Shown: piece after piece, positions 3,895 to 34,604 of the stretch | Layout of the letters: the number at the start of each line of letters is the position of its first letter | Numbering within the stretch: position 1 is the first letter of the stretch | Source: Phreatobacter sp. | GTDB taxonomy: Bacteria; Pseudomonadota; Alphaproteobacteria; Rhizobiales; Phreatobacteraceae | DNA length: 43,743 nucleotides | Reading direction: 5' to 3' | Assembly (NCBI RefSeq): GCF_022843985.1 | Contig: NZ_JALHMP010000035.1 | Location: 1-43,743, forward strand | Translations under genes and position numbers: made by a program | Notes under the pieces: model-generated | The model's input: the letters and a program-made list of their open reading frames with translations, nothing else | Databases searched by the model: none | What the model was told of the DNA's origin: nothing

Positions 3895-3896
3895 CC

Positions 3897-4955: not shown

Positions 4956-5139
4956 TCCCCCGGCGATCCCCATCGCCGCCGTCGACCATTGCGCGCCCGG
5001 GGTCTCCCTCTGGAGATCCCGGGCGATGCGTGGGGCGCCGTCCAGCTCATGCCGGCGGCTTCGGAGGCGGAACCGGGAGCGGTTGCAAAGATCCTCCGTC
5101 TCCTGTCTTGCTCGCCGATCTGCCGCCGAGGAGGCCGCC

Positions 5140-14131: not shown

Positions 14132-14202
14132 GTGCCGGGTTCCTTGCAAGCGACGGCCGGCACGCGAGGCGCCGGCCGCAGGGTCATTCCGCCGTCCCTG
14201 GA

Positions 14203-15270
14203 TCAGCGCAGCGGCGCAGGGATGCGCTGCAGTTCGCGCCACTCGCCGACCTTCGTGATGTAGTCACGCAGGCTGGTCAGGGCTTCCTTGAACAGCGGGT
14301 CGCGCGCCGCCTGCTCGTTCAGAACCTCTTCCGAGGCCTTCTGCAGGGCGGTGAGCACGGTGTCGGGGAAGCGCCGGATGGTGACGCCCTGGCTGCGATA
14401 ATACTCAAGGGCGGTGCGCTGGGTGTCGATCTGGTCGTACATGTTGAAGGTCACGTTCGCCATGCAGGCCTCGCGCATGATCGTGCGCTGCCGGTCGGTA
14501 AACGAGTTCCAGACCCCCTTGTTGATGATGATCGAATCCCAGGTGGCGAGCTGGTGCCAGCCGGGGAAGTAGTAGTTCTTGGCGACCCGATAGAAGCCCA
14601 GGCCGCGGTCGATTGAAGGCAGCGAGAATTCTGTGGCATCGATGCGTCCGCGCTCCAGGGCCACGAAGATCTCGCCTGCGGGCACCAGCTGCGTCGAGAC
14701 ACCGAGCTTCGACAGGACGAGGGCGCCGAGGCCGGCGATGCGCATGCGCAGGCCCTTCAGGTCGTCGACCGAGTTGATCTCCTTGCGGAACCAGCCGCCG
14801 GCCTCGGAATCGACGAGGTGACAGGGCAGGATGACCACGTTGTGCGGGTCGTAGGCCTTCTGGATGATCTCGAGACCGCCGCCGCGGAACATCCAGGCGA
14901 GCAGGATCTCCGGGGATGCGCCGAAGGGCATGGCGCTCACGAGGTTGGTGACGGGGATCTGGTTCGCCCAGTACCCCATCCAGTCGAAGGCCATGGGAAT
15001 GGCGCCCGACGAGACGGCACCGAACATCTCCAGCGGCGGCGACAATTCGCCGGCATTGCGGACGCGGATCTTGATCTCGCCATTGGTCATGGCATCGACC
15101 ATCTGCGCCCAGCGGCCCGGGCTCGGTCCGAGCGAGGGCAGGTTGATGGGGAAGCCGTGCTGCAGATCGAATGTCCGCGATTGCTGCGCCATGGCGGGCT
15201 CCGCCACCGGCATCCAGGTCGCCGCGGCCAGAAGCGCAAGCCCGGCCGTCACTGTCCTCAAGAGTTTCAT
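14203..15270 (-). CDS. TRAP transporter substrate-binding protein (DctP type)
   Basis: A 355-residue periplasmic protein. The signal peptide ends near VAEPAMAQ. The conserved substrate-contact region is visible: GLRMRIAGLGALVLSKLG, VPAGEIFVALERGRIDATEF, SLPSIDRGLGFYRVAKNYYFPGWHQ. GGAGGAAACGGCG precedes the start. Arginine in the RMRIAG segment is the family's carboxylate clamp, so the ligand is probably an organic acid. Co-location with an FAD dehydrogenase and an SDR suggests the acid is oxidised after import; the compound itself is unknown. Confidence 0.92.
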   Translation of the reverse strand: MKLLRTVTAGLALLAAATWMPVAEPAMAQQSRTFDLQHGFPINLPSLGPSPGRWAQMVDAMTNGEIKIRVRNAGELSPPLEMFGAVSSGAIPMAFDWMGYWANQIPVTNLVSAMPFGASPEILLAWMFRGGGLEIIQKAYDPHNVVILPCHLVDSEAGGWFRKEINSVDDLKGLRMRIAGLGALVLSKLGVSTQLVPAGEIFVALERGRIDATEFSLPSIDRGLGFYRVAKNYYFPGWHQLATWDSIIINKGVWNSFTDRQRTIMREACMANVTFNMYDQIDTQRTALEYYRSQGVTIRRFPDTVLTALQKASEEVLNEQAARDPLFKEALTSLRDYITKVGEWRELQRIPAPLR

Positions 15271-18007: not shown

Positions 18008-18790
18008 TCACGGTGCCCGGTATCCCAGATCCGACGAGAGCTTTCCGACAAAGGCAAGCATCGCTTCCGCCCGTGCGCCGCCTGACCTCGTCTCCAGCAT
18101 GCCGGCAGCGGCGATCATGGTCACGACGCATTGAAGCTGGCCAGTGTAATCCCGGACAGGTGCCGCGATGGCATTCACGCCGGGCACGGGCTGGCCTTCG
18201 ATCGGCGCAAAGCCGTGGCGGCGGATGAAGGTCGTGTGGCGCTTCAGGTCGGCCAGGGTCGTCGCCTCGCCGATGCGCTGGGTCGCGCGATCGGTCCGTT
18301 CGGCGGTGACGCGTTCGTCGATCAGCCTGTCCGGCAGATGGGCGGCGAAAACCCGTCCGGTGGCGGTCCCGGTGATGGAGAAGACGGTCCCGGCCCGCAC
18401 ATTGACGTGCAATTGGTGGGGGCCCTCCTGCACCTGGACGATGGTCGGGCCATAGGTGCCCCAGACCGACAGCGCAACCATGGCGGCCTGTTCGGTCGAG
18501 AAGGCGACGATGGCCTCGCTCGCCATGCGGAGGGGGTCATGGGTGCGAAGCCGGACCAGACCGAGGCTGAGCGCCATAGGCCCCAGCCGGTAGAGGCCGG
18601 AGCCGTCCTCCTGCTCGACCAGGCCGGCGCTCTTGAAGGAGACGAGATAGGCGTGGACCTGCGCCGGGGTCATGCCGGCATGTTCTGCCAGGTCGCGCAG
18701 CATGCAGGGGCGCCCGATCGTCACGAAGGCGTGGAGGATCCGGCTGCCCGTCTCGATCGCGCCGACGCCCCGCTGCGGCTTGGTCTCCAT
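18008..18790 (-). CDS. IclR-family transcriptional regulator
   Basis: A 260-residue regulator with an N-terminal winged helix (about residues 10-65: GSRILHAFVTIGRPCMLRDL, AEHAGMTPAQVHAYLVSFK) and a C-terminal effector domain (TGTATGRVFAAHLPD, RHGFAPIEGQPVPGVNAIAAPV). ATG 18790 is chosen; the open frame continues upstream to 18919, but that part is arginine-rich and not IclR-like. It is the first gene of the SDR-flavoprotein-TRAP operon and presumably its regulator, with candidate sites at 17140-17168. Confidence 0.88.
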   Translation of the reverse strand: METKPQRGVGAIETGSRILHAFVTIGRPCMLRDLAEHAGMTPAQVHAYLVSFKSAGLVEQEDGSGLYRLGPMALSLGLVRLRTHDPLRMASEAIVAFSTEQAAMVALSVWGTYGPTIVQVQEGPHQLHVNVRAGTVFSITGTATGRVFAAHLPDRLIDERVTAERTDRATQRIGEATTLADLKRHTTFIRRHGFAPIEGQPVPGVNAIAAPVRDYTGQLQCVVTMIAAAGMLETRSGGARAEAMLAFVGKLSSDLGYRAP

Positions 18791-18930
18791 GGCGATCACA
18801 CTCCACCCTTCATCCGCGGTCGAAGCCCGCCGACGCGACGGGCGCTCGGCGCGTCGCCGGCCGCGAAGGCTAGCGTCTGCCGGACGCATCAAGAAGATCA
18901 CGCCGCCTGATTTTTCCATCGCGGCCGGGG

Positions 18931-20031: not shown

Positions 20032-21039
20032 TCAGGGCGCGGCCGTCGAGCGCCGCACGACCAGTTCGATCGGCAGCCGCGTATGCTCCAGGCGACCTTG
20101 ACCACTGATCTCGGCCAGGAGGGTGGAGGCCGCCACCTGCCCGATCTGCGCGGTTGGAATGCGCACCGTCGTCAGGGCCGGCATCATACTGGCTGAAAAC
20201 TCGATGTCGTCGATGCCCGCCACCGACAATTCCCCGGGCACGGATAGCCCGCGCGCCTGCGCTTCCTGCACGCCGCCGATGGCGAAGAGATCGATCCCGC
20301 CGATGACGGCGGTCGGTCGTTCGGCCAGATCGAGCAGCCGCGCGCAGCCGGCGCGTCCTCCGGCCATGGTCAGGACCTGCTCGCTGACCAGCGCATCGGG
20401 CAGCGCGAGGCCCGCCCGTTCCATGGCCTGCCTGACGCCCGCGAGCCTTGCCCGCTGGCGGTCGTTGAACGCCAGATGGCCAACGATCATGCCGATGCGC
20501 CGATGGCCTAGACCGATCAGGTGCTCCGCGACCAACCGCCCGGCCGCCTCGTTGTCCACCGTCACCGCCGCGAAGTCGGGCGCGCCGACCCAGGTGAGGA
20601 CAACCCGAACTTCGCTCGTCGCCAGGAGCCTTACCGTCTCCTGGGAGCGCTCGGCCCCGACCAGCATCAGCCCGTCGACGCCGCGCGCCAGAAGCATGCG
20701 CACCGCCTCGGTTTCCGCCGCAAGGCTCATTTCGTGGGAGGCGACCAGCAGCTGATAGCCTTCACGCGCTAGGGCCGATTGAAAGGACTGGAGCACGCGG
20801 GCGAAGATGGTGCTGTCGAGGGTGGGGACGACGGCGCCGATCGTCATCGAGCGACCGGAGGCGAGGGCGCGCGCGGTGCCGTCAGTCAGATAGCCAAGTC
20901 GGCGGGCGCTGTCGCGCACGCGCGTCAGGGTTTCGAGCGCCAGCAGGCCGGGCTGGGCCATGGCGCGCGACACGGTCGCCGGGGAAACACCGGCGTCACG
21001 GGCGACATCGACCAGCCGGGCTTTGCGGTGGGAAGCCAT
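20032..21039 (-). CDS. LacI-family transcriptional regulator of the sulfonate uptake/oxidation operon
   Basis: A 335-residue LacI regulator. The N-terminal helix-turn-helix and hinge are visible (residues 7-65: RLVDVARDAGVSPATVSRAM, then RRLGYLTDGTARALASGRS), followed by the periplasmic-binding-protein-like effector domain (IGAVVPTLDSTIFARVLQSF, DGLMLVGAERS, VDNEAAGRLVAEHLIGLGHRRIGMI). No Shine-Dalgarno sequence lies before ATG 21039, and a promoter-like pair at 21069-21074/21046-21051 would start RNA at about the ATG, so the mRNA may be leaderless. It diverges from the DHPS-type ABC operon and its candidate operators lie between them. The inducer is probably the imported sulfonate or an intermediate. 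Confidence 0.9.
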   Translation of the reverse strand: MASHRKARLVDVARDAGVSPATVSRAMAQPGLLALETLTRVRDSARRLGYLTDGTARALASGRSMTIGAVVPTLDSTIFARVLQSFQSALAREGYQLLVASHEMSLAAETEAVRMLLARGVDGLMLVGAERSQETVRLLATSEVRVVLTWVGAPDFAAVTVDNEAAGRLVAEHLIGLGHRRIGMIVGHLAFNDRQRARLAGVRQAMERAGLALPDALVSEQVLTMAGGRAGCARLLDLAERPTAVIGGIDLFAIGGVQEAQARGLSVPGELSVAGIDDIEFSASMMPALTTVRIPTAQIGQVAASTLLAEISGQGRLEHTRLPIELVVRRSTAAP

Positions 21040-21203: not shown

Positions 21204-21980
21204 ATGATCGGACGGCGAGGGCTGATCGGGCTGGGAACCGTCGCGGGCGTCATCGCCCTGTGGTTCCTGCTGACCACCCTGACCGGGATCGTCTCCGGGG
21301 CGCGTTTTCCCTCGCCGTCGGAATTCTGGGCCTCGCTGGTGCAGATCTGGACCCGCGGCTATGCCGGCGGGCAATTGCTCGCCCACGCCCTGCACAGCCT
21401 GAAGCTCGTGGTCATGGGCTTCCTCGTCGCCATCGCGACCGGCATTCCCCTCGGCCTCTGGATGGGATGGAGCCGGCGGGCCGAGGCGGCCATCAATCCG
21501 GTCTTCCTGGTCATCCGCCCGATCCCGCCGCTGGCGTGGATCCCGCTGGCGATCCTGTGGCTCGGCCTCGGCGACGCCGCCAAGATCATGGTCATCTGGT
21601 TCTCGGCCTTCGTTCCCTCGGTGATCAACACCTTCGCCGGCGTTCGCAACATCGACCGGCCGATCCTCGAGGCCGCGCGCATGCTCGGCACGCCGCGCGG
21701 GCGCATGGTGACGGAGATCATCGCCCCCGCCGCCTCGCCGCTCATCTTCACCGGGCTGCGCCTGTCGCTGCAGGCGAGCTGGACAACGCTGGTCGCCGCT
21801 GAACTCGTCGGCGCGATGGTCGGCGTCGGTTTCGTCCTCAACATGGCGCAACAGGATCTCTACCCGGCGATGATCCTCGTCGGCATGATCACGGTCGGCA
21901 TCCTCGGCTGGGCAACGACCGTGGCGCTGGCGCGGGTCGAGCGGCAGGCGCTCGCCTGGAACGTCGCGGCCCGGGATTGA
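21204..21980 (+). CDS. ABC transporter permease, SsuC/TauC type (putative sulfonate importer)
   Basis: A 258-residue inner-membrane permease. Family features are RFPSPSEFWASLVQ near the N-terminus, IPLGLWMGWSRRAEAAINP and the coupling loop AARMLGTPRGRMVTEIIAPA. ATG 21204 is preceded by GGGGGAG. It is first in the operon of permease, permease, ATPase, aminotransferase, binding protein and dehydrogenases. Because the downstream genes oxidise a C3 sulfonate, the importer likely carries that compound. Confidence 0.9.
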   Translation: MIGRRGLIGLGTVAGVIALWFLLTTLTGIVSGARFPSPSEFWASLVQIWTRGYAGGQLLAHALHSLKLVVMGFLVAIATGIPLGLWMGWSRRAEAAINPVFLVIRPIPPLAWIPLAILWLGLGDAAKIMVIWFSAFVPSVINTFAGVRNIDRPILEAARMLGTPRGRMVTEIIAPAASPLIFTGLRLSLQASWTTLVAAELVGAMVGVGFVLNMAQQDLYPAMILVGMITVGILGWATTVALARVERQALAWNVAARD

Positions 21981-21984
21981 TCCG

Positions 21985-22773
21985 ATGAACGGCGCGCCGC
22001 TTTCCCTCCGCGAAACCTTGGCCTGGGGCGCCCTCGGCGCCCTCGCATTCGTCGGCTTCTGGACGCTGATCACAACCTCCGGACTTGTCCCGCGCCAGTT
22101 CCTGCCCTCGCCGCTCGATCTCGTTCAGCGCTTCTTCCACCTGCTCACCTCGCCTTTCGCCGGCGCCACGCTGCCGGAGCATCTCGCATCGAGTTTCCGC
22201 CGCTATGCCTTCGGCGTGCTGCTGGCGGCGGCCATCGGCATACCGCTCGGACTTCTCATGGGGTGGTTCCGCCTTCTCGACGACATCGTCACCCCGATCT
22301 TCGACGGTCTGCGCTTCATTGCCCCCATTGCCTGGGTGCCCTTTGCGGCCCTCTGGTTCGGAACCGGCATCGGCGGGCCGGTCATGATCATCTTCGCCGG
22401 CGCCTTCCCGCCCTGCCTGATCAACGCCTATCGCGGCGCGCGCTTCGTCGAGCCGCGTCTGATCGAGGCGGCCCGCATGCTCGGCACGGGCAACCTGCGC
22501 ATGATCCTGGAGATCCTGCTGCCGGCCGCCGTGCCCTCGATCGTCGCGGGACTGCGCGTCTCGGCCGGACTTGGCTGGCAATCGCTGGTCGGCGCCGAGC
22601 TCATCGTCGCGGCTGCCGGCGTCGGTTTCATGATGGTGCAGGCACAGGGCAGCGTTCAGACCACGACAGTCATGGCCGGCATGCTCGCCATCGGCCTCGT
22701 CGGCATGCTGATCGATATCCTCCTGCGCCAGGGCGAGGCGTGGATGCGCCGCCGCCGTGGGCTCGACAGCTAG
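21985..22773 (+). CDS. ABC transporter permease, SsuC/TauC type (second subunit)
   Basis: A 262-residue permease starting 4 nt after the preceding stop. It has the same family hallmarks: FLPSPLDLVQRFFHLL, IPLGLLMGWFRLLDDIVTPI and EAARMLGTGNLRMILEILLPA. With the gene at 21204 it forms a heterodimeric channel, as in the importer at 1234-3568. The ATPase gene follows after 17 nt. Confidence 0.9.
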   Translation: MNGAPLSLRETLAWGALGALAFVGFWTLITTSGLVPRQFLPSPLDLVQRFFHLLTSPFAGATLPEHLASSFRRYAFGVLLAAAIGIPLGLLMGWFRLLDDIVTPIFDGLRFIAPIAWVPFAALWFGTGIGGPVMIIFAGAFPPCLINAYRGARFVEPRLIEAARMLGTGNLRMILEILLPAAVPSIVAGLRVSAGLGWQSLVGAELIVAAAGVGFMMVQAQGSVQTTTVMAGMLAIGLVGMLIDILLRQGEAWMRRRRGLDS

Positions 22774-22790: not shown

Positions 22791-23588
22791 ATGGGGTCGA
22801 TCCGTTTCCAGAACGTGGACAAGGTGTTCGGCGCCAGCCAGGCGGGCGTCAAGGTGCTCGACGACATCAATCTGGAGATCGGCGAGAAGGAATTCGTCGC
22901 CATCGTCGGCCCTTCAGGATGCGGCAAGACCACCTGCCTGCGCATGGTCGCCGGGTTCGAGGCCCCGTCCTCGGGGACAATCACCGTCTCCGGCAAGGTC
23001 GTCAGCGAGCCGGGGCCTGACCGCGCCGTCGTGTTCCAGCAATTCGCGCTGTTCCCCTGGAAAACCGTCCGCGAGAACATCGACCTCGGGCTGCGCAACA
23101 AGAACCTGCCGGCAGCCGAGCGCGATCGCCTCATCGCCGACGCCCTCAAGCTGATGAACCTCGAGAGCCACGCCGGCGCCTTCCCCCACCAGCTGTCGGG
23201 GGGCATGCAGCAGCGCGTCGCGATCGCCCGCGCCTATGTGCTCGACCCCGATGTGCTGCTGATGGACGAGCCTTTCGGCGCGCTCGACGCCCAGACCCGT
23301 GTGGTGATGCAGGAGGAACTGGTGCGCCTCGCGCGGGTCAATCCGCGCACGGTTCTGTTCATCACCCATGCCGTGGAGGAGGCCGTCTATCTGGCCGATC
23401 GCGTCGCTATCATGACCCGCAGGCCGGGCCGCATCAAGGAAGTCCTCGACATCAAATCCGTGCGCCTCGCCGAGAACTGGGACCGCTTCGCCCGGATCGA
23501 GGACGTCATGGATCAGGAGTCGTTCGTTCACCTGCGCACCCAGATCTGGAAGTCACTGCGCGAAGAAAAGGGCGCTCAGGGTGTCTGA
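22791..23588 (+). CDS. ABC transporter ATP-binding protein, SsuB/TauB type
   Basis: A 265-residue ATPase with Walker A GPSGCGKTT (40-48), Q-loop in VVFQQFALFPWKTV, signature LSGGMQQ (135-141), Walker B LLMDEP (156-161) and ITHAVEEA with the switch His. The C-terminal extension (MTRRPGRIKEVLDI onward) is typical of sulfonate/nitrate ATPases. ATG 22791 follows AGGAAG. Its last 8 nt overlap the GTG start of the DegT gene, so that aminotransferase is translationally coupled to the transporter. Confidence 0.92.
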   Translation: MGSIRFQNVDKVFGASQAGVKVLDDINLEIGEKEFVAIVGPSGCGKTTCLRMVAGFEAPSSGTITVSGKVVSEPGPDRAVVFQQFALFPWKTVRENIDLGLRNKNLPAAERDRLIADALKLMNLESHAGAFPHQLSGGMQQRVAIARAYVLDPDVLLMDEPFGALDAQTRVVMQEELVRLARVNPRTVLFITHAVEEAVYLADRVAIMTRRPGRIKEVLDIKSVRLAENWDRFARIEDVMDQESFVHLRTQIWKSLREEKGAQGV

Positions 23589-24864
23589 ACAGCTGGCACT
23601 GACCCGCGACCTGACCGAACCGGAGCCCATTCCGGAAGCCGGTATCGCGCGCGCGACCGAGCTGATGCGATCAGGGCGCCTGTTCCGCTATGGCGAGATG
23701 GGAGCGGACCAGCTCGACGCCTCGCTCCTGGAAGAGGAATTCGCGGCCTTTGTCGGGCGGCGCTATTGCGTCGCGGTCAATTCCGGTGGCGCGGCGATCT
23801 TTCTCGCCCTGAAGCTTCTCGATGTAGAGCCGGGCGCACCGGTCCTCGTCAACGGATTCACGCTGGCCCCCGTGCCGGGTGCGATCCGCCATGCCGGCGC
23901 CAGACCCGTCATCGTCGAGATCGGCCAGGACTATTGCATCGACATCGACGACCTTGTCGCCAAGGCCCGCATGTCCGGCGCGAAGGTCCTCGTTCTCTCG
24001 CATATGCGCGGCCATATCGCCGACATGGACGCGGTCATGGCCGCCTGTACCGATCTCGGCCTCGCGCTGGTCGAGGACTGCGCCCATGCGCTCTGCGCGT
24101 CCTGGCGGGGTCGCGCCATCGGCACTTTCGGCGCGATCGGCGCCTTCAGCGCCCAGACCTACAAGCACCTGAACGCCGGTGAGGGTGGTTTTGTCGTCCT
24201 CGACGACGAGGACATGGCGGCGCGCGCGATCCTTCATTCCGGCAGCTATATGCTGCACGCCCAGCATCGCAGCGTTCCGCCCCCCGCGGTGATCGCCCGC
24301 TGGAGCGAAGAGACGCCGAATTTCAGCCTGCGCATGACTGCACTGGCCGCAGCGCTGCTGCGCTCGCAACTCGCAGAGCTTCCCCGCCGCGCCAGGCGCT
24401 GGAACGAGATCCATGATCGCATCGGCGCGCGCCTGTCCCGTTCGCAGCATGTCCGGCTGCCGCACCGCAGCCCCCACGAGAGCTATTCGGCGACCTCGGT
24501 GCAGTTCTCACTGCCGGGCCTGTCGATGGATGAGATCATCGCGGCGCTTGCCGCCTGCAAGGCACGCGGACTGCCGGTGAAATGGTTCGGCGGCGCCCGT
24601 CAGGTCGGCTTCACGAGCGCGCCGCGGCATTGGCGCTACGCGGGCGACCAGGGACCGCTGACTGCGACGCACCAGGTGCTCGCCAGCCTTTGCGATATCC
24701 GAACGCCCGTCACGCTGACGGACGAGGAATGCGACCTCATCGGCGACATCGTCTGTGAGGCCATCGAGACCGTGGTCCGGGCGTCTGCCTGGCCGCGCAA
24801 AGGCGCCGCCCCCGCCGGACACCTGGCGGACGGCTTCAGAACAACACGGGAGGATGATTCATGA
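23581..24864 (+). CDS. DegT/DnrJ/EryC1-family PLP aminotransferase inside the sulfonate importer operon
   Basis: A 427-residue fold-type I enzyme. Key features are NSGGAAIFLALKLL (PLP phosphate region, 67-80), VEDCAHA with Asp166 for the PLP nitrogen, and the Schiff-base Lys195 in FSAQTYKHLNAGEGGF. Active-site residues are intact. Family members normally aminate keto sugars or cyclitols, that is, secondary ketones. It starts at GTG 23581, 8 nt inside the ATPase gene, and its stop overlaps the binding protein start (ATGA), so it is embedded between importer subunits. A substrate with a C2 ketone or amine and a sulfonate would fit the pathway, for example the cysteinolate/3-hydroxy-2-oxopropanesulfonate pair. 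The family call is firm and the substrate is inference. Confidence 0.88.
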   Translation: MSEQLALTRDLTEPEPIPEAGIARATELMRSGRLFRYGEMGADQLDASLLEEEFAAFVGRRYCVAVNSGGAAIFLALKLLDVEPGAPVLVNGFTLAPVPGAIRHAGARPVIVEIGQDYCIDIDDLVAKARMSGAKVLVLSHMRGHIADMDAVMAACTDLGLALVEDCAHALCASWRGRAIGTFGAIGAFSAQTYKHLNAGEGGFVVLDDEDMAARAILHSGSYMLHAQHRSVPPPAVIARWSEETPNFSLRMTALAAALLRSQLAELPRRARRWNEIHDRIGARLSRSQHVRLPHRSPHESYSATSVQFSLPGLSMDEIIAALAACKARGLPVKWFGGARQVGFTSAPRHWRYAGDQGPLTATHQVLASLCDIRTPVTLTDEECDLIGDIVCEAIETVVRASAWPRKGAAPAGHLADGFRTTREDDS

Positions 24865-25910
24865 AGCGTTTGATCGCAGGACTTCTGGCCGCTGCATCGA
24901 TCGGGCTGGCGGCGCCCGCTGTCGCCCAGACCCCGACGCCCATCGGCGTCAGCTACCAGCCCTCGCTCTACTGGGCGCTGCCGTTCCACTACGCCACGGT
25001 GAAGGGCTGGTGGCGCGAGGTCGGACTCGCGCCGAACTTCACCACCTTCCCGGCCGGCGCGCCGCAGATTGCCGCGGCCCCCTCCCGGTCCTGGGATGTC
25101 GGCGGAACGGGCTCCGTTCCCGCCGTGCTCGGTGCGGTCCGCTTCAACATCCTGACCATCGGCATCACCAACGACGAATCCAAGACCAATGCGATGATGG
25201 TGCGCGGCGAGCGTTTCGACGCGGTCCGCGCCAATCCGCAGCTGCTGCGCGGCCAGCGCCTGCTTCTGACCACCAACTCCACCGTCGACTACGCGGCGCG
25301 CAAATGCCTGGTCAGCATGGGCCTTGCCGCCAACGACATGCAGTTCGTCAACCTCGGTCAGGCGCAGATCATCACCGCGCTGACCTCGAACAATGGCGAC
25401 TTCGCCGGCGTCTGGGCACCGAACACCTACACGCTCGAGGAGCGCGCCAACGCCCGCTACCTGTGCTCTGGCGCCGAGGCGGGGGCTATCGTTCCCGGCG
25501 CCCTCGTGGTGCGTGCCGACTTCGCCCGCGAGCGTCCCGATGACGTGGCGAAGTTCCTCGCCGTCTATCTGCGTGGCTGGTCCTGGGCCAAGGCGAACCC
25601 GGCGGAAGCCCGCGCCCTCGCCCTCGATTTCTACAAGCAGGGTGGGCTCGAAGTGTCGCCCCGGGCGATGGACCAGGAATTCGCCCTCCGTCCGACCTTC
25701 GGCCTCGACGAGCAGTTGCGCATGATGGCGCGCGGCGCCTCCGGCTCGACGGTCGACGGCTGGTTCGGCGAGATCGGCAAGTTCATCACCGATGTCGGCA
25801 CGATCCCCACGAACCCGGCACCGGCAAGCTACATCTCGGACGATTTCCTCAAGCGTGTGGCCGCAGACGCGCGTCTGCGCGCCTTCGCCACCGAGTTCGA
25901 CAGGCGCTGA
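24861..25910 (+). CDS. ABC transporter substrate-binding protein, SsuA/TauA-like
   Basis: A 349-residue periplasmic protein. Signal peptide MKRLIAGLLAAASIGLA with cleavage near PAVAQ. Mature features are YATVKGWWREVGL, DVGGTGSVPAVLGA and GDFAGVWAPNTYTLEE. The start overlaps the aminotransferase stop (ATGA). It belongs to the same broad family as the protein at 3897 but is clearly distinct in sequence. It would deliver the sulfonate to the permeases at 21204-22773. A hairpin (25948-25969) follows before hpsN and may reduce read-through. Confidence 0.88.
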   Translation: MKRLIAGLLAAASIGLAAPAVAQTPTPIGVSYQPSLYWALPFHYATVKGWWREVGLAPNFTTFPAGAPQIAAAPSRSWDVGGTGSVPAVLGAVRFNILTIGITNDESKTNAMMVRGERFDAVRANPQLLRGQRLLLTTNSTVDYAARKCLVSMGLAANDMQFVNLGQAQIITALTSNNGDFAGVWAPNTYTLEERANARYLCSGAEAGAIVPGALVVRADFARERPDDVAKFLAVYLRGWSWAKANPAEARALALDFYKQGGLEVSPRAMDQEFALRPTFGLDEQLRMMARGASGSTVDGWFGEIGKFITDVGTIPTNPAPASYISDDFLKRVAADARLRAFATEFDRR

Positions 25911-27310
<1,400 letters not shown>

Positions 27311-27311
<1 letters not shown>

Positions 27312-28087
27312 TGGCCTTCGCGCTCGCCCCGCTCTTCGATCTCACTGGCCGCACCGCCCTCGTCACCGGCGGCAATAGCGGCATCGGCCTCGCCATCGCC
27401 CGCGCGCTCGGCCTCGCCGGAGCGAGCGTCATTCTGCTGGCGCGGCGCAGCGCGGACCTGGAGGCGGCTGCAGCCCGGCTGCGGAGCGATGACGGGATCA
27501 CCGCATCGGTCGTCGTCGCCGACCTGGCGGCGCCGGATTTCATCCCGCCGCTGTTGGCAAAGCTCGCACCGGAGCGGAACCCGATCGACATCCTCGTCAA
27601 CGCCGCCGGCGTGAACCTGCGTCAACCCTTCGGCGCGGTGACGGCCGAGAGCTTCGACCTGCACATGGCGCTGCATCTGCGCGCGCCCTTCCTTCTGGTC
27701 CAGTCTCTGTGTCCCTTCATGGCGGCGCGCGGATGGGGACGCGTCCTCAACATCGCATCGCTGCAGAGTACGCGCGCCTTCCCCAACAGCGCCCCTTACG
27801 GCGCGGCGAAAGGAGGGGTCGTCCAGCTCACCCGCGCCATCGCCGAGGAATGGTCCCGCCGCGGCGTGACCTGCAACGCCATAGCGCCCGGCTTCTTTCC
27901 GACGCCACTGACAGAACCGGTCTTCGCCGATCCCGTGCGGGCCGCCCGCAATGCCGACCAGACGGCAATCGGCCGCAACGGGCGCCTGGAAGACCTGTAC
28001 GGCGCCAGCGTGTTCCTCGCCTCGGACGCGTCGCTCTATGTCACCGGCCAGACCCTCGCCGTCGATGGCGGCTTCACTGCCAAGTGA
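27311..28087 (+). CDS. Short-chain dehydrogenase, possible DHPS 2-dehydrogenase
   Basis: A 258-residue classical [11 protein letters not shown] (19-26), NAAG (97-100), Ser150, Tyr163 and Lys167 (APYGAAKGG) and the ending [14 protein letters not shown]. Arg45/Arg46 after the second strand (LLARRS) suggest NADP(H) use. Its start overlaps the hpsN stop by one base. In known DHPS degraders two 2-dehydrogenases (HpsO, HpsP) racemise DHPS via the 2-oxo compound; this SDR and the following alcohol dehydrogenase are the obvious counterparts. I did not assign O or P individually. Confidence 0.85.
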
Positions 28088-28111: not shown

Positions 28112-29113
28112 ATGAAGGCCCTCGTCTATCTCGGTCCCAACCGCCTCGTCCATCGCGACGAGCCCGATCCCGTCCCGAACCCGGGCGAGGTTCTCGTCCG
28201 GGTCGAGGCGGTCGGCATCTGCGGCTCCGACATGCATGCCTATCATGGCCATGACAGCCGCCGCCCGCCGCCGCTTATCCTCGGCCACGAAGCGGCGGGC
28301 CGCATCGTCGGCGGCCCCTGGGATGGCCAGCGCGTGACCATCAACCCGCTGGTGGTCGATCCGAGCTGCCCCTATGCGATCGAGGGACGCTGGCACCTCT
28401 CGCCCTCGCGGCAGATCATCTCCATGCCGCCGCGTGCCGGCGCATTCGCCGAACTCGTGACCATCCCGGAGCGCAATGTCGTCGCCATTCCCGACGACCT
28501 GCCGATCGAGATGGCCGCCCTGGCGGAGCCGATTGCGGTGGCCTGGCATGCGGTGCGGCTCGGCGTCGAGCGGCTGCATCAGCCCCTGGCCGCCTGCCGC
28601 ACCGTCGTGCTTGGCGGCGGCGCGATCGGGCTGGCATCCGCCCTGGTCGCACGGCTTTTCGGCGCCCGGCGGATCAGCCTCGGCGAACCCAATCCCCTGC
28701 GCCGCCGCACCATCGGCGAGCACGAGGGTTTCGATGTCTATGCGCCGGGTGGCGCCACCGACCCGGCCGACAACAGCGTCGACCTCGTCATCGACGCCGT
28801 TGGGGCCGATGCCACCCGCGCCGCCGCCTCGGCCATGGTCCGCCCCGGCGGGGTCATCGTCCATGCCGGGCTTCTGCCGGGCACCGACGGGCTCGACCTG
28901 CGCAAGATCACGCTTCAGGAGGTCACGCTGACAGGGACCTATTGCTACACGCCGACCGATTTCGCCCAGACGGTTGCAGCCCTCGCCGCCCGGTCGCTGG
29001 GCACGCTGCGCTGGTTCGAGGAGCGGCCGCTCGCCGGGGGACCGGGAGCTTTCGCGGATATCGACGCCGGTGCGACCCCGGCCGCCAAGATCATCCTGCG
29101 CTGCGGCGCCTGA
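28112..29113 (+). CDS. Medium-chain alcohol dehydrogenase lacking the structural zinc site, possible DHPS 2-dehydrogenase
   Basis: A 333-residue MDR-family dehydrogenase. Catalytic zinc ligands are present (Cys37 in GICGSDMH, His59-Glu60 in LGHEAAG), as is the Rossmann region (VVLGGGAIGLASALVARLFGA). The structural-zinc lobe, usually four Cys in about 15 residues, has only Cys86 (DPSCPYAIEGRWHLSPSRQ); the surrounding loop is otherwise conserved in position. The second cofactor strand ends SLGEPNPLRRRT. It lies 24 nt after the SDR and ends 16 nt from the convergent comC. It probably works with the SDR in inverting the C2 hydroxyl of DHPS or processing the product of the DegT enzyme. Confidence 0.85.
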   Translation: MKALVYLGPNRLVHRDEPDPVPNPGEVLVRVEAVGICGSDMHAYHGHDSRRPPPLILGHEAAGRIVGGPWDGQRVTINPLVVDPSCPYAIEGRWHLSPSRQIISMPPRAGAFAELVTIPERNVVAIPDDLPIEMAALAEPIAVAWHAVRLGVERLHQPLAACRTVVLGGGAIGLASALVARLFGARRISLGEPNPLRRRTIGEHEGFDVYAPGGATDPADNSVDLVIDAVGADATRAAASAMVRPGGVIVHAGLLPGTDGLDLRKITLQEVTLTGTYCYTPTDFAQTVAALAARSLGTLRWFEERPLAGGPGAFADIDAGATPAAKIILRCGA

Positions 29114-29129: not shown

Positions 29130-30098
29130 TCACCAGGCCGCGGTCAGCCCCTCGGCCTCGGCCTTCCGGCGCAAGCCGAGCCGCCGCTGGCCAGGCAGAC
29201 GCGCGCCGGCCTGCGCCTCGATCATGCCGGCAAGCCTCGACAGGCGCTCGGCGAGATGATCCCCGCCCATGGCGGCGGGATCGATGACGATGACCAGTTG
29301 CCCGGTGCGCGGGGGTCCGCCCTCCCCGTCCAGGAAGGATGAGGCCTCCGCCGCGAGATGCGCGCCGACCAGCGCCGCGGCGAGGATCTCGATCATCAGC
29401 GCCAGGGTCGCCCCCTTGGCATCGCCCATCGGCGTCATCGTGCCCGCGAGCGCAGCCGCCGCATCGGTGGTCGGCCGCCCGTCGGCATCAAGCGCCCAGC
29501 CTTCCGGGATGGTTTCGCCCTTCTGATGCGCGGCGGCGATCGGTCCACGTGCCACCTTCGACATCGCCATGTCGATGACGACGGGTTCGCGGCCCTTGAG
29601 CGGCGCGGCAAAGGCGAGGGGGTTGGTGCCGAACACCGCCTTTGATCCGCCCCAGGGCGCGATCGCACCGGGTGTGTTGGCGAACATCAGGGCCACGAGA
29701 CCCTGTTCCGCCAGAGCTTCGACATGGAGACCCGCGGCGCCGCAATGGTTGGAGTTGCTGATCGGTGCGCAGGCGATCCCCTGCGCGCGGGCGACCGCCG
29801 GGAGCTCGGCGATCACCAGATCGATCGCCGGATAGGCGAAACCATCCCTGGCATCCACCGCCAGAACGCCCGGACGGGGATGCGACGCGGCGGGTGTCGC
29901 GCGGCCATCGATCTTGCCCGCGCGGAGCATGGTCAGATAGGTCGGCACGCGGGACAGCCCGTGCCCCTTGAGGCCGTCGGCCTCGGCGCGGACGAGCGCG
30001 CGCGCGACCGAGAGCGCGTTCCCGGCGCTTGCGCCTTCGGCTTCGAACCTGCCTGCGACATGGGCGATACCGTCGGCGATCGACAAGGTGCGGCTCAT
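29130..30098 (-). CDS. comC: (R)-sulfolactate dehydrogenase, malate/L-lactate dehydrogenase type 2 family (ComC-like)
   Basis: A 322-residue NAD(P)-dependent 2-hydroxyacid dehydrogenase of the LDH2/MDHG2 family. Family residues are HGLSR (46-50) and SNSNHCGAAGLH (His118), plus AMSKVARGPIAAAHQKGETIP for cofactor contacts. ComC interconverts (R)-sulfolactate and 3-sulfopyruvate. ATG 30098 overlaps the slcC stop (ATGA), with AAGGAG 7 nt upstream; an extension to 30146 would sit inside slcC. Paired with slcC it makes a racemase-like route. The family also contains malate and ureidoglycolate dehydrogenases, so the assignment depends on the suyAB/slcC context. Confidence 0.82.
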   Translation of the reverse strand: MSRTLSIADGIAHVAGRFEAEGASAGNALSVARALVRAEADGLKGHGLSRVPTYLTMLRAGKIDGRATPAASHPRPGVLAVDARDGFAYPAIDLVIAELPAVARAQGIACAPISNSNHCGAAGLHVEALAEQGLVALMFANTPGAIAPWGGSKAVFGTNPLAFAAPLKGREPVVIDMAMSKVARGPIAAAHQKGETIPEGWALDADGRPTTDAAAALAGTMTPMGDAKGATLALMIEILAAALVGAHLAAEASSFLDGEGGPPRTGQLVIVIDPAAMGGDHLAERLSRLAGMIEAQAGARLPGQRRLGLRRKAEAEGLTAAW

Positions 30099-31036
30099 GC
30101 AGGAACTCCTTCCAGGGCGCGACGGACGGCTTCGACAGTCACCCATGAGACGCGCGTGTTCGATTCAGCCGTCACCCCGGCGATATGCGGGGTGAGGATC
30201 AGGTTGGGGCAGCCGACAAAGATCTCCGCCTTGTCTGCCTTCAGGGGCTCGACAGCGAAGACATCGAGCGCCGCTCCGCCGATCGTTCCGGCCTTCAGCG
30301 CCGCGACGAGCGCTGCTTCGTCGACGACACCGCCCCTGGCGGCGTTGATCAGGATCGCGTCGGGTTTCATGGCGGCGAGCTCCGTGGCCCCGATGCAGTC
30401 CCGCGTTGCGGCGGTCAGAGGGACATGCAGGCTGAGCACATCGCTGAGCCGCAGGAGATCGTCGAACGCGACCGGTTGGACGCCAAGCGACCGGAAGGCC
30501 GGATCATCCGCGCCAAGGAACGGGTCATGGGCGAGGATCGTGACGCCGAAAGGCACGGCCCGGCGGGCCGTCTCGCGGGCGATCGCCCCGAATCCGAGCA
30601 GGCCGAGGCTCTTGCCCATCAGTTCACGGCCCATCAGGTCGGTGCGCGGCCACTGGCCGGCGCTGACCCGGTCGGTTGCGAACCAGGCGCGGCGGAGCAG
30701 CATCAGGGCGGCGGAGATGACATATTCGGCAACCGAGGCGTCATTCGCTCCCGTAGCGGGAAACACCGCGATGCCCCGGCCGGCGCAGGCTTCAACGTCG
30801 ATATTGTCGAGCCCGACGCCCAGCCGTCCGATCGCCTTCAACCGCGGCGCAGCTGCCAGCAGTTCCGGGCGCACCTGCGTCCGGTTGCGCACGATCAGCC
30901 CGCGCGCTTCCGCCAGCAAAGCGAGGAGCGCTTCCGGACGGTCGACCAGCGTGGGGTCGTAGTGAACGTCGAAGCCGGCCAGCCCCCCGGTGATCGCCGC
31001 CTCATCCATGAATTCGCTGATGACAATATCGGGCAT
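30095..31036 (-). CDS. slcC: (S)-sulfolactate dehydrogenase (SlcC-like), D-2-hydroxyacid dehydrogenase family
   Basis: A 313-residue NAD-dependent dehydrogenase. It has the SlcC-like start PDIVISEFMDE, the cofactor motif LGFGAIA (147-153), and catalytic Arg234 (NAARGG), Glu263 (AVEP) and His284 (TPHIAG). SlcC oxidises (S)-sulfolactate to 3-sulfopyruvate, which ComC reduces to the (R) form used by SuyAB. It begins 9 nt after the suyZ-like gene and overlaps comC. 3-Phosphoglycerate dehydrogenase-like function is the alternative, but the length (no C-terminal ACT domain) and location favour SlcC. Confidence 0.85.
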   Translation of the reverse strand: MPDIVISEFMDEAAITGGLAGFDVHYDPTLVDRPEALLALLAEARGLIVRNRTQVRPELLAAAPRLKAIGRLGVGLDNIDVEACAGRGIAVFPATGANDASVAEYVISAALMLLRRAWFATDRVSAGQWPRTDLMGRELMGKSLGLLGFGAIARETARRAVPFGVTILAHDPFLGADDPAFRSLGVQPVAFDDLLRLSDVLSLHVPLTAATRDCIGATELAAMKPDAILINAARGGVVDEAALVAALKAGTIGGAALDVFAVEPLKADKAEIFVGCPNLILTPHIAGVTAESNTRVSWVTVEAVRRALEGVPA

Positions 31037-31045
31037 GGCGCGTTC

Positions 31046-32077
31046 TCAGCCGAGGAGTGTGAGACCAGTGACGACGACGAGGAGGATCCAGAGGGTCGCC
31101 CCGACGAACACCGCGCCATGGCGCCATCCGATGGCGCGCAGCGCGGCGAAGGAGGTACCAAGCCCCAGTGCCGCGATCGCGACGAGGAGTCCGAGGCCCG
31201 AGGCCTGGATCAGTGCTGAGCGGATCGGGGCATAGGCGAGGCTCGCGGCCAGGGCGGGCTGGGCGCTCATCCATGTGTTGAAGCCACAGAGAGCGATGAA
31301 GACGAAGGCGAAAACGGGGGCTGGAACCTTGGCGCTCCCGGTCGCCTCCCCTTGCCGGGTGAACCACCAGCCGATGCCGACGACGACCGGCAGAAGCAGA
31401 AAGACGCGGAACAGCTTGACGATCACGGCCGTGTCGCCGGTGGCCTCGGACACCGCATAGCCGGCGCCCACCACCTGCGCCATGTCGTGGATCGTCGCGC
31501 CCAGCATGATTCCCGTCGTGCGCGCGTCGAACCCCAGCGCGGCGCAGAGCGGGGGATAGGCCAGCATCACGACGGTGGAGAGGACATTCGCCATCACGAC
31601 CGCGAAGGCGACATCCGCACTCTTGTTTGGCGAGTTCGGCACCACGGTCGCGGTCGCCAGAGTCGCGGACGCCCCACAGACGGCATTGGCGGCACCCGCA
31701 AGGGCGCCATAACCGGCCTCCCGGCCCATGAGGCGGGCCAGCGCCATGGCCAGGATGATGGTCGTGGCCATGGACAGGATGACGAGGAGGGCAACGCCGA
31801 GACCGAGGCCGGCGATGTCACCGAGAGCGATACGCAGGCCGAGGAGACCGATCGCCCAGCGCAGCAGCTTCTTCACGCAGAAGGTCAGGCCGGGCTGGAA
31901 CGTGGCCCGGCTGGCGATCCCGTTCAGCGCGACGCCGATGATCAATGCGATCACCATGGCCGGCAGGGCCAGCCGCCCGCCGGACAGGACGGCGAGCGCT
32001 GGCTCAGCGAGCGCCGCCGCCAGCGCAACAAGGCCGGCGAGGGCGAGGCCCGGGACCAGGGGCGAGAGGATGCTCAT
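31046..32077 (-). CDS. suyZ: YeiH/UPF0324-family membrane protein, putative sulfite/sulfate exporter (SuyZ-like)
   Basis: A 343-residue integral membrane protein with about ten hydrophobic helices. The family signature is GATIHDMAQVVGAGYAVSE, with AANAVCGASATLATATVV upstream and NKSADVAFAVVMANVLSTVVML. The family is often found in sulfolactate and sulfonate gene clusters, where it is proposed to remove the toxic sulfite, or sulfate, released by the lyase. It lies between suyB (79 nt) and slcC (9 nt). The export direction and ion are inferred from neighbours. Confidence 0.8.
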   Translation of the reverse strand: MSILSPLVPGLALAGLVALAAALAEPALAVLSGGRLALPAMVIALIIGVALNGIASRATFQPGLTFCVKKLLRWAIGLLGLRIALGDIAGLGLGVALLVILSMATTIILAMALARLMGREAGYGALAGAANAVCGASATLATATVVPNSPNKSADVAFAVVMANVLSTVVMLAYPPLCAALGFDARTTGIMLGATIHDMAQVVGAGYAVSEATGDTAVIVKLFRVFLLLPVVVGIGWWFTRQGEATGSAKVPAPVFAFVFIALCGFNTWMSAQPALAASLAYAPIRSALIQASGLGLLVAIAALGLGTSFAALRAIGWRHGAVFVGATLWILLVVVTGLTLLG

Positions 32078-32156: not shown

Positions 32157-33437
32157 TCACGCCGAGCGGTAGAGCTTGGTCATCACGAACTCGCGGTGGC
32201 CAAGCGCTTCCGCCGCCGTCAGCCGCCCATTGGCGGTGCGCACGATGTTGGCGATCAGCGCATCGCCCGCCTCGGGGATCGTCATGTCGCGGCGCAGGAT
32301 CCCCGACACGTCGACATCGATATGTTCGGGCATGGTCCGCATGGTCTGCGGATTGCCGGTGATCTTGATGACGGGCACGATCGGGTTGCCGATGACGTTG
32401 CCCTGTCCCGTGGGGAACGTGTGCACCACGTAACCGCCGGCGGCCATCAGGGTCACGCATTCGGCAGCGGCCGAGGACGTGTCCATGAAATAGAGCCCGG
32501 GCCCCCTGGCCGGTGCCTCTGCCGGCTGCAGGATGTCGATATAGGTCGAGTTGCGACCGATTTTCTCGAGATTGCCGAGCGCCTTCTCCTCGATGGTCGA
32601 CAGTCCGCCCTTGATATTGCCCTTGGTCGGCTGCGAGTCGGAGAGATCGGAGGTCTTGAACTGCTCGATCACGTCGTCCTGATAGGCCTTCCACATCTTG
32701 TACCAGCGCTCGCCGACCTCCGGGGTGGCCGCGCGCGCCTTGCACAGATGTTCCGCACCGGTGATCTCGGAGGTTTCGCCGAACACGCCATAGATGCCCT
32801 TCGGCAGAAGCTTGTCATACATGTTGCCGACGGTCGGGCAGGAGGACAGCCCCGTGGTCGTGTCGCTTTCGCCGCATTTGGTCGAGACCCAGAGCTCGGC
32901 AATGTCGCATTTCTCGCGCTGAAGCTCTGACGCCCATTGCACGAATTCCTTGGCGACATAGGACGCCTTGGCGATCGTGCCGATGTCGCCGACACCCTCG
33001 ATCCCGAAGCCGACGACCGGCTTGCCGGTCTTGGCAATGCCATCGACGATGATCTTGGTCCAGCCGTCCTCGATCCCGATCACCACCACCGCAGCGACAT
33101 TCGGGTTCGAGCCGATGCCGATCAGGGTGCGGAAATGCAGGTCGAGGTCTTCGCCGAACTGCAGGCGGCCATAGGCGTGGGGCAGGGCGAGCGTGCCCTT
33201 GACGTTGTTGGCGACGGCTTCACAGGCCGCGTTCGACAGGTCGTCGAGCGGCAGGATCACCACGTGGTTGCGGACCCCAACGCGCCCGTTCTCGCGCCGC
33301 CATCCCATGAAGGAGGAGGCGGCGGCCGTGGTACGGCGTTTGGGTTTGGGCGCCTTGAAGGCGGGCACATCGATCTTCCGGCCCTTGATCTGGGCGAGCC
33401 GGTTCCGGTTGAGGTCGAAATTGGCGACGATCGTCAT
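32157..33437 (-). CDS. suyB: (2R)-sulfolactate sulfo-lyase large subunit SuyB
   Basis: A 426-residue protein of the altronate/galactarate dehydratase-like (UxaA/GarD C-terminal) family. Motifs are [13 protein letters not shown] (51-63), [15 protein letters not shown] (185-199, with Cys188), [12 protein letters not shown], and the C-terminal [12 protein letters not shown]. With SuyA it cleaves (R)-sulfolactate to pyruvate and sulfite, the desulfonation step of the pathway. About 40 residues precede the conserved [10 protein letters not shown] core, including a basic [11 protein letters not shown] stretch of unclear role. ATG 33437 is preceded by GAGGAGA; suyA ends 13 nt upstream. Confidence 0.9.
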
Positions 33438-33738: not shown

Positions 33739-33795
33739 CAAATCCCTCCCGGAACGCATGTCTGACCGCCGTTCTCGACGGCCGCTCGGGAATGT

Positions 33796-33823
33796 CTTAT
33801 ATAAGTTATATGATAGATGACAA
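33796..33823 (-). promoter_or_regulatory. suyA promoter overlapping palindromic operator, divergent with the gntR gene
   Basis: On the - strand TTGTCA (33823-33818, 5/6 match) and TATAAG (33801-33796, 5/6 match) are 16 bp apart, a strong promoter for suyA. The region contains two overlapping perfect palindromes, CTTATATAAG (33796-33805) and ATATAA-G-TTATAT (33799-33811). These are typical of AT-rich GntR-family operators and are unusual in this GC-rich DNA. Binding would block suyA transcription and probably also the gntR gene, whose ATG (33810) lies within the element. Confidence 0.65.
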
Positions 33824-34604
33824 TGCCTCTTCGTCGCCGCTGTCGCGCAAGGCTGCCCCGCCGACCGATTTCGGCTTCCGGCCGCTTTATCGTCAGGTGA
33901 AAGAGGAGTTCGTGCGCCGCATGGTCGACGGGCGCTGGGCGACGGGCACCGCGCTGCCGAGCGAGCAGGGCCTCGCCGCCGAACTCGGCGTGAGCCAGGG
34001 GACTGTGCGCAAGGCGCTGGACGAACTGGCCGCCGAGAATGTGCTGGTCCGTCGCCAGGGACGCGGCACCTATGTCGCCGAACATGACGAAGCGCGCATC
34101 CTGTTCCAGTTCTTTCGTCTTGTTCCCGATGACGGCATCGCCCGTTTCCCTGACAGCGAGGTGCTGTCGCAAGGTGTTCATGCCGCGCGCAAGGACGAGC
34201 GCGACGCGCTGGTGCTTCCCTCCGGCGCGAAGGTCGCCCGCATCGGCCGCGTCCGCTCGCTTGGGCGTTCGCCCGTCATTCTGGAGACCCTGTCGCTGCC
34301 CGACAGGCTGTTCCCGGGGCTCACGCAGTCGCCGGTGCCGAACAGTCTCTATGCGCATTATGCCGCACATTACGGGATCACGATCGCCCATACGACCGAG
34401 CGGCTGAAGGCGGTGACCCTCGCCGGCGAGGACGCCGCCCGTCTTGATCGGCCGGACGGCCATCCTGCGCTGCGCGTCGAAAGGCTGGCCACCGCGCTCG
34501 ATGGCCGCGCCGTAGAATGGCGCGTGAGCCTATGCCTGACCGACTCCGCGCATTACCTTGTCAATGACGCGCCCAAAGGACCGCACAAAGCGGCCGGAAC
34601 TTGA
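33810..34604 (+). CDS. GntR/HutC-family (UTRA) regulator of the suy operon
   Basis: A 264-residue regulator. The winged helix (about residues 24-90) shows LYRQVKEEFVRRMVDGRW, LPSEQGLAAELGVSQGTVRKA and RRQGRGTYVAEH; a UTRA effector domain follows (RIGRVRSLGRSPVILETLSLP, TTERLKAVTLAGEDAARL). Two ATGs are possible, 33792 and 33810, and neither has an RBS. I chose 33810 because 33792 lies upstream of the palindromic operator. A TATAAG (33800-33805) 4 nt before 33810 could give a leaderless mRNA. It is divergent from suyA and co-oriented with the TctC-type gene 27 nt downstream. The effector may be sulfolactate or sulfopyruvate. Confidence 0.87.
   Translation: MIDDNASSSPLSRKAAPPTDFGFRPLYRQVKEEFVRRMVDGRWATGTALPSEQGLAAELGVSQGTVRKALDELAAENVLVRRQGRGTYVAEHDEARILFQFFRLVPDDGIARFPDSEVLSQGVHAARKDERDALVLPSGAKVARIGRVRSLGRSPVILETLSLPDRLFPGLTQSPVPNSLYAHYAAHYGITIAHTTERLKAVTLAGEDAARLDRPDGHPALRVERLATALDGRAVEWRVSLCLTDSAHYLVNDAPKGPHKAAGT

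Follow-up and report, generated by a model that had tools for sequence, protein, structure and literature searches.

Why should a gene for an aminotransferase be built into the importer genes of an operon for C3-sulfonate breakdown? The question is raised by a 43,743-nt stretch of Phreatobacter sp. DNA (assembly GCF_022843985.1, contig NZ_JALHMP010000035.1, positions 1 to 43,743; this whole stretch is hereafter called the window), in which a forward-strand open reading frame (ORF) with a GTG start encodes a DegT-family aminotransferase of 427 aa (Table 1). On sequence evidence, we propose that this enzyme would be a cysteinolate:2-oxo acid aminotransferase interconverting cysteinolate (2-amino-3-hydroxypropanesulfonate) and 3-hydroxy-2-oxopropanesulfonate (HOPS), a reading to which we give about an even chance of being correct. 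The fold and the pathway parts are known, their combination is undescribed, and the substrate is probably new.

The aminotransferase and its operon

The Pfam model DegT_DnrJ_EryC1 (PF01041) scored 186.8 bits on the protein against a gathering cut-off of 19.8, and the 50 Foldseek matches listed for its AlphaFold2 model (pLDDT 86.5, pTM 0.87) were DegT-type aminotransferases or close kin, at 19-25% identity. No NCBIfam equivalog cut-off was reached; the seven matches were all nucleotide-sugar enzymes (of PseC, ArnB, WecE and LegC type), with PseC scoring best at 124.9 against a cut-off of 423.5. Lys195 and Asp166, which in the DegT family are the catalytic lysine and the aspartate at N1 of pyridoxal phosphate (PLP), had been described as intact in a sequence-only reading of the window, and both are indeed present and invariant in 114 of 114 aligned DegT rows, the window among them. 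Ratios of nonsynonymous to synonymous substitution rates (dN/dS) of about 0.12-0.22 in four pairs indicate that the gene is under purifying selection. The overlaps given in the same reading, 8 nt with the ATPase gene and 4 nt with the binding-protein gene, agree with the ends of the ORFs, which lie at 23588 (ATPase end) and 24861 (binding-protein start).

Among 397 genomes of the same order that were searched, 54, the window's own counted, carried a DegT homolog at E ≤ 1e-40. A second scan covered named genomes and yielded 39 loci, of which 37 had a usable DegT; its patterns were derived from the window, so that this set is biased towards it. Joined, the two sets hold 35 distinct window-type genomes including the window, four of which are cut short. 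A survey of DegT-hpsN adjacency had been suggested before, and we show that DegT, binding protein, HpsN, HpsO and HpsP are encoded on one strand in 31 of the 31 window-type genomes with sufficient downstream sequence (window included). With the adjacency kept in every testable genome, a single-strain oddity is rejected. The nearest DegT homolog (94% identity) belongs to a record naming a Phreatobacter metagenome-assembled genome (MAG), and further window-type loci occur in Bosea, Rhabdaerophilum and MAGs labelled Beijerinckiaceae, Methylobacterium or Hyphomicrobiales. Of the other window-type loci, 30 reach more than 4.3 kb upstream, and all of these have a divergent LacI homolog, 61-95% identical, in the same place. 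Overlaps were measured in 27 window-type loci, taking as start the start codon closest to the aligned window start: the ATPase and DegT genes shared 8 or 11 nt in 23, while the DegT and binding-protein genes overlapped by 4 nt in three and by 1 nt in one and were 4-48 nt apart in 23.

Matches to solved structures indicate that the three dehydrogenases downstream are those of 2,3-dihydroxypropanesulfonate (DHPS) breakdown, the HisD-like enzyme being HpsN, the short-chain dehydrogenase/reductase (SDR) HpsO and the alcohol dehydrogenase (ADH) HpsP. The window HpsN aligns to 8v35 without gaps, and the sulfonate and zinc contacts of CpHpsN are present in it. SuyB, 80-100% identical, was found in 33 of the 35 window-type genomes, window included, in a search of DegT-positive genomes only; it was missed in G089, an 84%-complete MAG, and in G1218. 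Its gene is near the DegT operon in the window and in loci L107 and L109, and elsewhere in the genome in G052, G353, G365, G132 and G065.

A direct cysteate exit was rejected for the window's genome, which is 100% complete, neither CuyA nor CuyB having been found there. The CuyA model NF052482 reached 328.8 at best against a cut-off of 450, the only full-length CuyA-like protein is a 1-aminocyclopropane-1-carboxylate (ACC) deaminase (577.9 bits, cut-off 392), and a search for the CuyB racemase, with one CuyB as query, gave a best match at E 2.4e-4 and 25% identity. Since this genome has no CuyA or CuyB, an imported amino-sulfonate must shed its amine before SuyAB, and deamination at that point would be a logical role for DegT there. 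Across the 35 window-type genomes, CuyA exceeded its curated cut-off in four (1/8 plus 3/27).

The substrate, the amino acceptor, the direction and the order of steps that we infer would be as follows. The importer would bring in an aminated C3 sulfonate, most likely cysteinolate, probably along with DHPS. DegT would be the first intracellular enzyme, passing the C2 amine by way of PLP on Lys195 to a 2-oxo acid and releasing HOPS. HOPS could then be reduced by HpsO/HpsP to DHPS and oxidised by HpsN to sulfolactate; alternatively, HpsN could oxidise it to sulfopyruvate, which SlcC/Ldh2-type enzymes would reduce to sulfolactate. In either case SuyAB would split sulfolactate into pyruvate and sulfite. 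CuyB/CuyA and, in a few cases, Xsc would be fed in relatives by the same DegT and HisD-like dehydrogenase. The operon probably allows the use of an amino-sulfonate such as algal cysteinolate.

Relatives beside other desulfonation genes

DegT relatives outside the window type, which in the order and plasmid sets are 40-57% identical, have the same conserved residues. Genes for CuyA and an amino acid racemase lay near DegT in 10 of 11 plasmid records (all 10 with a HisD-like gene as well), in 10 of 53 loci of the order (seven with a HisD-like gene) and in 4 of 16 other loci of the class (three with a HisD-like gene; the 16 include L134, which groups with a far Rhodobacteraceae DegT paralog). The full plasmid operon runs LysR, cuyA, degT, racemase, tauA, ATPase, permease, hisD-like, alpha/beta hydrolase, YeiH. 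In the Ensifer locus L166, the only set scanned, both curated cut-offs were passed (CuyA 549.9/450, CuyB 285.9/190), and the HisD-like enzyme of this operon is closest to RpHpsN (8wwe, E 4.4e-183). TauA of one CuyA-type operon exceeded the taurine cut-off (320.9/304.25). HisD-like genes also stand beside DegT without CuyA, for instance in L033, L049, L056, L110 and L113, and Xsc adjoins DegT in L036, L074, L075 and L113, at a minimum of 73% identity to an Xsc fragment that comes from L075 itself. One core of DegT and HisD-like enzyme meets three desulfonation exits: the sulfolactate lyase SuyAB, CuyB with the cysteate lyase CuyA, and the sulfoacetaldehyde acetyltransferase Xsc. The earlier suggestion that DegT is an entry point for cysteinolate is partly borne out, by the conserved adjacency, by the recurrent C3-sulfonate neighbours and by the CuyA and CuyB of relatives, which point to a C3 sulfonate with its amine at C2. 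At the genome level, CuyA above cut-off occurred anywhere in 24 of 54 DegT-positive against 2 of 26 DegT-negative genomes of the order (Fisher p = 8e-4, kinship ignored); these 26 were hand-picked from one order, and the eight from the window's genus include both CuyA-positive ones.

Further genes recur in these neighbourhoods. An alpha/beta hydrolase is found in the DegT-racemase operons L158, L160, L161 and L166 and also in L051, where no CuyA was seen; its role may be to release cysteinolate from conjugates, either esters or amides. In L033, L035 and L036, a threonine-synthase-like PLP protein (identified by eye) diverges from the HisD-DegT pair, past the LacI gene, and could be a further C-S lyase acting on an amino-sulfonate. 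The plasmid records L157-L163, L165 and L166 annotate CuyA as 'D-cysteine desulfhydrase' and the HisD-like sulfonate enzyme as 'histidinol dehydrogenase', and six of them label the binding protein 'taurine', names that are misleading as to the pathway.

The aligned DegT rows fall into six groups: window type (14), CuyA type (25), HisD-only (15), the rest (35), a close Rhodobacteraceae paralog (13) and the far one (12). A tree made by a quick method from 116 rows (the window, 113 homologs and two outgroups from its own genome, most near-identical window-type loci being left out) has an unsure root, with very long outgroup branches. The nearly invariant residues L95, P97, G100, H196, M224, N247, S249, W274, K334, W335 and S346 are common to five groups and differ in the far paralog; all six groups retain, fully or almost so, R143, H145, N198, Y223, R251 and R374. 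R296 is a further column that runs through the window, CuyA and HisD-only types, most others and the close paralog. In place of L95, AHBA synthase, 7b0d and BtrR have Phe or Trp, and in place of R143 they have Phe, Tyr or Ala. The conserved columns would line the active site, and their sharing across the window, CuyA and HisD-only types, most other rows and the close paralog suggests one substrate. For the HisD-like partner, the zinc, substrate and sulfonate contacts of CpHpsN as defined in the available text of PMC11382572 (His, Glu-His, Asp-Lys and His) are kept in 48 of 48 rows, 13 of the window type and 35 others, with the aberrant tree row L075 left out and the numbering offset by one; CpHpsN Ser226 is Thr in 34 of the 35 other rows. 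From both alignments we infer that a single kind of DegT pocket, and a single kind of HisD pocket for the sulfonate, come back with differing exits.

Candidate substrates

All the parts would find a use with a substrate that carries an amine at C2, a CH2OH group and a sulfonate: DegT would take the amine, HpsN or HisD the CH2OH, and Suy, Cuy or Xsc the sulfonate. Cysteinolate fits this description. It is, to our knowledge, the natural compound that also accounts for the HisD-like partner. According to the available part of PMC8703288, cysteinolate is abundant in algae, with a cell content reportedly above that of dimethylsulfoniopropionate (DMSP) in some. A literature search, with subscription papers mostly outside its scope, found no DegT enzyme of C3-sulfonate catabolism, no cysteinolate aminotransferase and no bacterial enzyme for cysteinolate, and the sequence-only reading likewise knew of no described DegT enzyme with this role. 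Related steps may have been put forward earlier by Burchill and Williams, in their 2022 work on cysteinolic acid.

Several points weigh against this assignment. Reduction of HOPS by HpsO/HpsP is unsure, since, in the part of PMC11131964 that is available, the two oxidise the C3 hydroxyl to give sulfolactaldehyde, identified against a standard, whereas the available text of PMC11382572 terms them DHPS-2-oxidoreductases, C2 enzymes that epimerise DHPS. The SDR/ADH pair that had been noticed earlier is thus identified as HpsO/HpsP, while the reduction of the ketone to DHPS that was ascribed to it is doubtful. If the pair acts on the C3 hydroxyl, HOPS may go via HpsN to sulfopyruvate and on to the sulfolactate dehydrogenase-like enzymes. 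If a HisD-like enzyme oxidised cysteinolate straight to cysteate, DegT would be needless in CuyA-type operons; the HisD of that type is closest to RpHpsN (8wwe), a known R-DHPS dehydrogenase. DegT and HpsN could also serve two separate imported substrates. For 24 of 46 order loci of the more distant kind, the fetched stretch showed none of the markers, some of the contigs being short; two of the 24 adjoin Xsc (L074, L075), and the genomes of 12 encode CuyA at another place. Finally, none of the 13 loci of the close Rhodobacteraceae paralog, which shares the conserved columns, had a sulfonate marker nearby.

The strongest rival is cysteate/sulfopyruvate transamination, which explains nearly as much as the cysteinolate reading and which we regard as a real, if unlikely, possibility. 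DegT would then make cysteate from sulfopyruvate in CuyA-type operons and, in the window type, deaminate imported cysteate to sulfopyruvate, to be reduced by SlcC/Ldh2 to sulfolactate for SuyAB. Such a reaction would link up with any of the three exits, and it is consistent with the placement of degT in 8 of 11 plasmid loci, where cuyA and the racemase gene are its immediate neighbours on either side, with the sulfolactate dehydrogenase-like genes beside suyAB in the window and with the resemblance of the Ensifer HisD to RpHpsN. Moreover, PMC11382572 states that no gene is known in R. pomeroyi either for this aminotransferase or for CuyB. However, sulfolactate dehydrogenase-like genes are seldom near DegT, whose commonest partner is HpsN/HisD; at the thresholds used, they were confined to the window, its near-twin L024/L077, and L105, L107 and L109 among window-type loci, to the CuyA-type loci L069 and L161, and to L124. 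The HisD partner of the CuyA operons would also have no clear role unless sulfopyruvate arises elsewhere, and ordinary class I aminotransferases could do the reaction.

It is improbable, in our view, that DegT works as a relay in CuyA-type operons, shifting the amine of cysteinolate onto sulfopyruvate to give HOPS and cysteate while HisD oxidises HOPS to sulfopyruvate, for a net conversion of cysteinolate to cysteate (the window type having the same DegT with a different acceptor). Each enzyme of the CuyA-DegT-CuyB-TauABC-HisD operon would get a step, with none missing, but a simpler course would be for the HisD-like enzyme to oxidise cysteinolate directly, and we know of no enzyme with sulfopyruvate as acceptor for cysteinolate.

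Action on a terminal amine, with DegT interconverting sulfolactaldehyde and 3-amino-2-hydroxypropanesulfonate, or sulfoacetaldehyde and taurine, seems more improbable still. DegT enzymes can accept aldehydes, an example being the 8-amino-octulosonate transaminase 5k8b among the PDB matches, four DegT loci match the Xsc fragment, one of them being its source, and a TauA passes the taurine cut-off, as described above; HpsO/HpsP would also yield sulfolactaldehyde, going by the available part of PMC11131964. Against this, the amine on which CuyA and CuyB act is at C2, and 24 loci have both whereas four have Xsc. That an ordinary nucleotide-sugar or aminocyclitol aminotransferase was captured in the operon by chance is hardly credible: sugar and aminocyclitol aminotransferases are the best PDB and fold matches of DegT, but the nucleotide-sugar equivalog models stay far under their cut-offs, the linkage holds in all testable window-type genomes, and many relatives have other sulfonate genes. 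A nucleotide-sugar identity is rejected on the curated cut-offs and the sulfonate context.

The cysteinolate reading may extend to the Rhodobacteraceae. The close paralog is flanked by genes resembling glmS in 13 of 13 and glmU in 12 of 13 loci (named by eye), and in 11 of 13 it is preceded on its own strand by a HAD phosphatase-like gene (by eye), adjoining it in eight (L128, L136, L138, L140, L145, L148, L151 and L153; centres at most 1.3 kb apart) and standing about 2.3-2.4 kb away in three (L129, L144 and L150). A role of the close paralog and this phosphatase in cysteinolate biosynthesis is possible. SAL is an aminolipid made by Rhodobacteraceae, and its head group is named cysteinolic acid in the available text of the review PMC11631085 and aminopropane sulfonic acid in that of PMC8319176, where cysteinolic acid biosynthesis is still to be established. 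SalA, the acyltransferase of the aminolipids with a cysteinolate head group, was found in 80 of 83 Rhodobacteraceae genomes with the close paralog and in 8 of 37 without it (120 genomes/genera), under limits set by hand: E about 1e-150 or better for the paralog, including G1183 (1.2e-150) and the split gene of G1203, and E 1e-80 or better for SalA, including the partial G1103. SalA was assigned by its HX5D motif and an Arg 26 residues past the His of that motif; the valine of its FPxGxV is at position 79, against the 80 implied by the published numbering. Because SalA and the close paralog both follow lineage, as does the far paralog, their association may be shared ancestry; 23 genomes have no DegT match at 1e-60, and thus neither paralog. 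Co-occurrence with SalA, being confounded by lineage, is not accepted as proof of substrate and serves as a lead only.

The far paralog (L137, L139, L143, L147, L149 and L152) is a second, faster-evolved Rhodobacteraceae DegT. It is near glutamine synthetase-like, flavin adenine dinucleotide (FAD) oxidase and class I glutamine amidotransferase genes, a setting that by eye resembles a glutamylpolyamine cluster.

Tentatively, and with considerable doubt, we suggest that DegT and HisD form a portable cysteinolate module for SuyAB, CuyB/CuyA and Xsc, and that the close paralog, often behind a HAD phosphatase, reverses the reaction for the SAL head group. If so, one enzyme family would explain both the entry and the origin of cysteinolate in bacteria. 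A residue signature of the DegT family would let cysteinolate turnover be traced in genomes, and the annotation of relatives, now labelled as generic DegT or class I/II-fold aminotransferases, would be corrected. DegT would also suggest a gene for the aminotransferase gap of the CuyA route, as stated in the available text of PMC11382572.

Neighbouring genes and known systems

Table 1. Genes of the sulfonate operon and its surroundings in the window, with the basis of each name.
Feature	Position	Strand	Basis
LacI-type regulator, divergent from operon	20032..21039	-	ORF; homologs at same position
ABC importer permease 1, NitT/TauT type	21204..21980	+	PF00528; NCBIfam matches all below cut-off
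ABC importer permease 2	21985..22773	+	PF00528
ABC importer ATPase	22791..23588	+	PF00005; start is the ATG of MGSIRFQ
DegT-family PLP aminotransferase	23581..24864	+	PF01041; AlphaFold2 model; Foldseek
Substrate-binding protein, NMT1/SsuA-like	24861..25910	+	PF09084; TIGR01728 SsuA_fam 84.1 bits, under cut-off 163.5
HpsN, DHPS 3-dehydrogenase (HisD-like)	25998..27311	+	PDB 8v35, E 1.6e-208; zinc/sulfonate contacts kept
HpsO, SDR DHPS dehydrogenase	27311..28087	+	PDB 9pvq, E 8.8e-90; 8wwf HpsO, E 2.8e-74
HpsP, zinc alcohol dehydrogenase	28112..29113	+	PDB 8wwd, E 6.7e-110; next match 8.7e-30
Ldh_2-family dehydrogenase, probable sulfolactate dehydrogenase	29130..30146	-	PF02615; best match NF040650 175.5, cut-off 500
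2-hydroxyacid dehydrogenase, possible SlcC-type sulfolactate dehydrogenase	30095..31036	-	PF02826/PF00389; role from context
YeiH-type putative sulfate/sulfite exporter	31046..32077	-	TIGR00698 102 bits, cut-off 232.6
SuyB, sulfolactate sulfo-lyase large subunit	32157..33437	-	PF20629, PF04295
SuyA, small subunit, 102 aa	33451..33759	-	ORF directly upstream of SuyB; named by position
GntR-type regulator, divergent from suyAB	33792..34604	+	ORF, named by eye

We take 8wwd to be HpsP from the adjoining HpsN and HpsO entries, 8wwe and 8wwf, and the name SuyB is likewise our assumption from family and context. NF040650 is the model of L-sulfolactate dehydrogenase; the 2-hydroxyacid dehydrogenase reached no NCBIfam cut-off. 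The GntR-type regulator has homologs of 51-58% in L105, L107 and L109. Elsewhere in the window, the stretch 2057-6546 encodes the ATPase and binding protein of another NMT1-type importer and, after them, an amidase. A tripartite ATP-independent periplasmic (TRAP) transporter is encoded on the reverse strand at 12168-15270 (DctM and DctQ by Pfam, binding protein by eye), adjoining a flavin-dependent dehydrogenase-like ORF at 15373-17106 and an SDR; an IclR-like regulator (by eye) at 18008-18919 lies in the same neighbourhood.

Among known systems, the HpsNOP-SuyAB route of DHPS catabolism in Cupriavidus pinatubonensis JMP134 and Dinoroseobacter shibae is represented in the window by relatives of HpsN, HpsO, HpsP and SuyAB. 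The hpsRNOUP-suyAB cluster of C. pinatubonensis has a major facilitator superfamily (MFS) importer, HpsU, and the available text of PMC11382572 mentions no DegT in it; the window differs in its ABC importer with a built-in DegT and its divergent LacI-type regulator. With the CuyA/CuyB cysteate route the likeness lies in the relatives, where DegT adjoins cuyA and cuyB, mostly together with a HisD-like gene, whereas the window's genome has neither enzyme and DegT does not figure in the available part of the published scheme. The DegT/DnrJ/EryC1/StrS aminotransferases of sugars and cyclitols (AHBA synthase 1b9h, BtrR 2c7t and the scyllo-inositol-type 7b0d) share the fold and the catalytic Lys and Asp, but the window DegT has 19-25% identity among the matches listed, differs from them in H196 and N198 by the lysine, and stands in a sulfonate-breakdown context. 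The taurine and cysteate aminotransferases (Tpa of class III and AAT of class I), which belong to fold classes other than DegT, would carry out comparable chemistry on amino-sulfonates.

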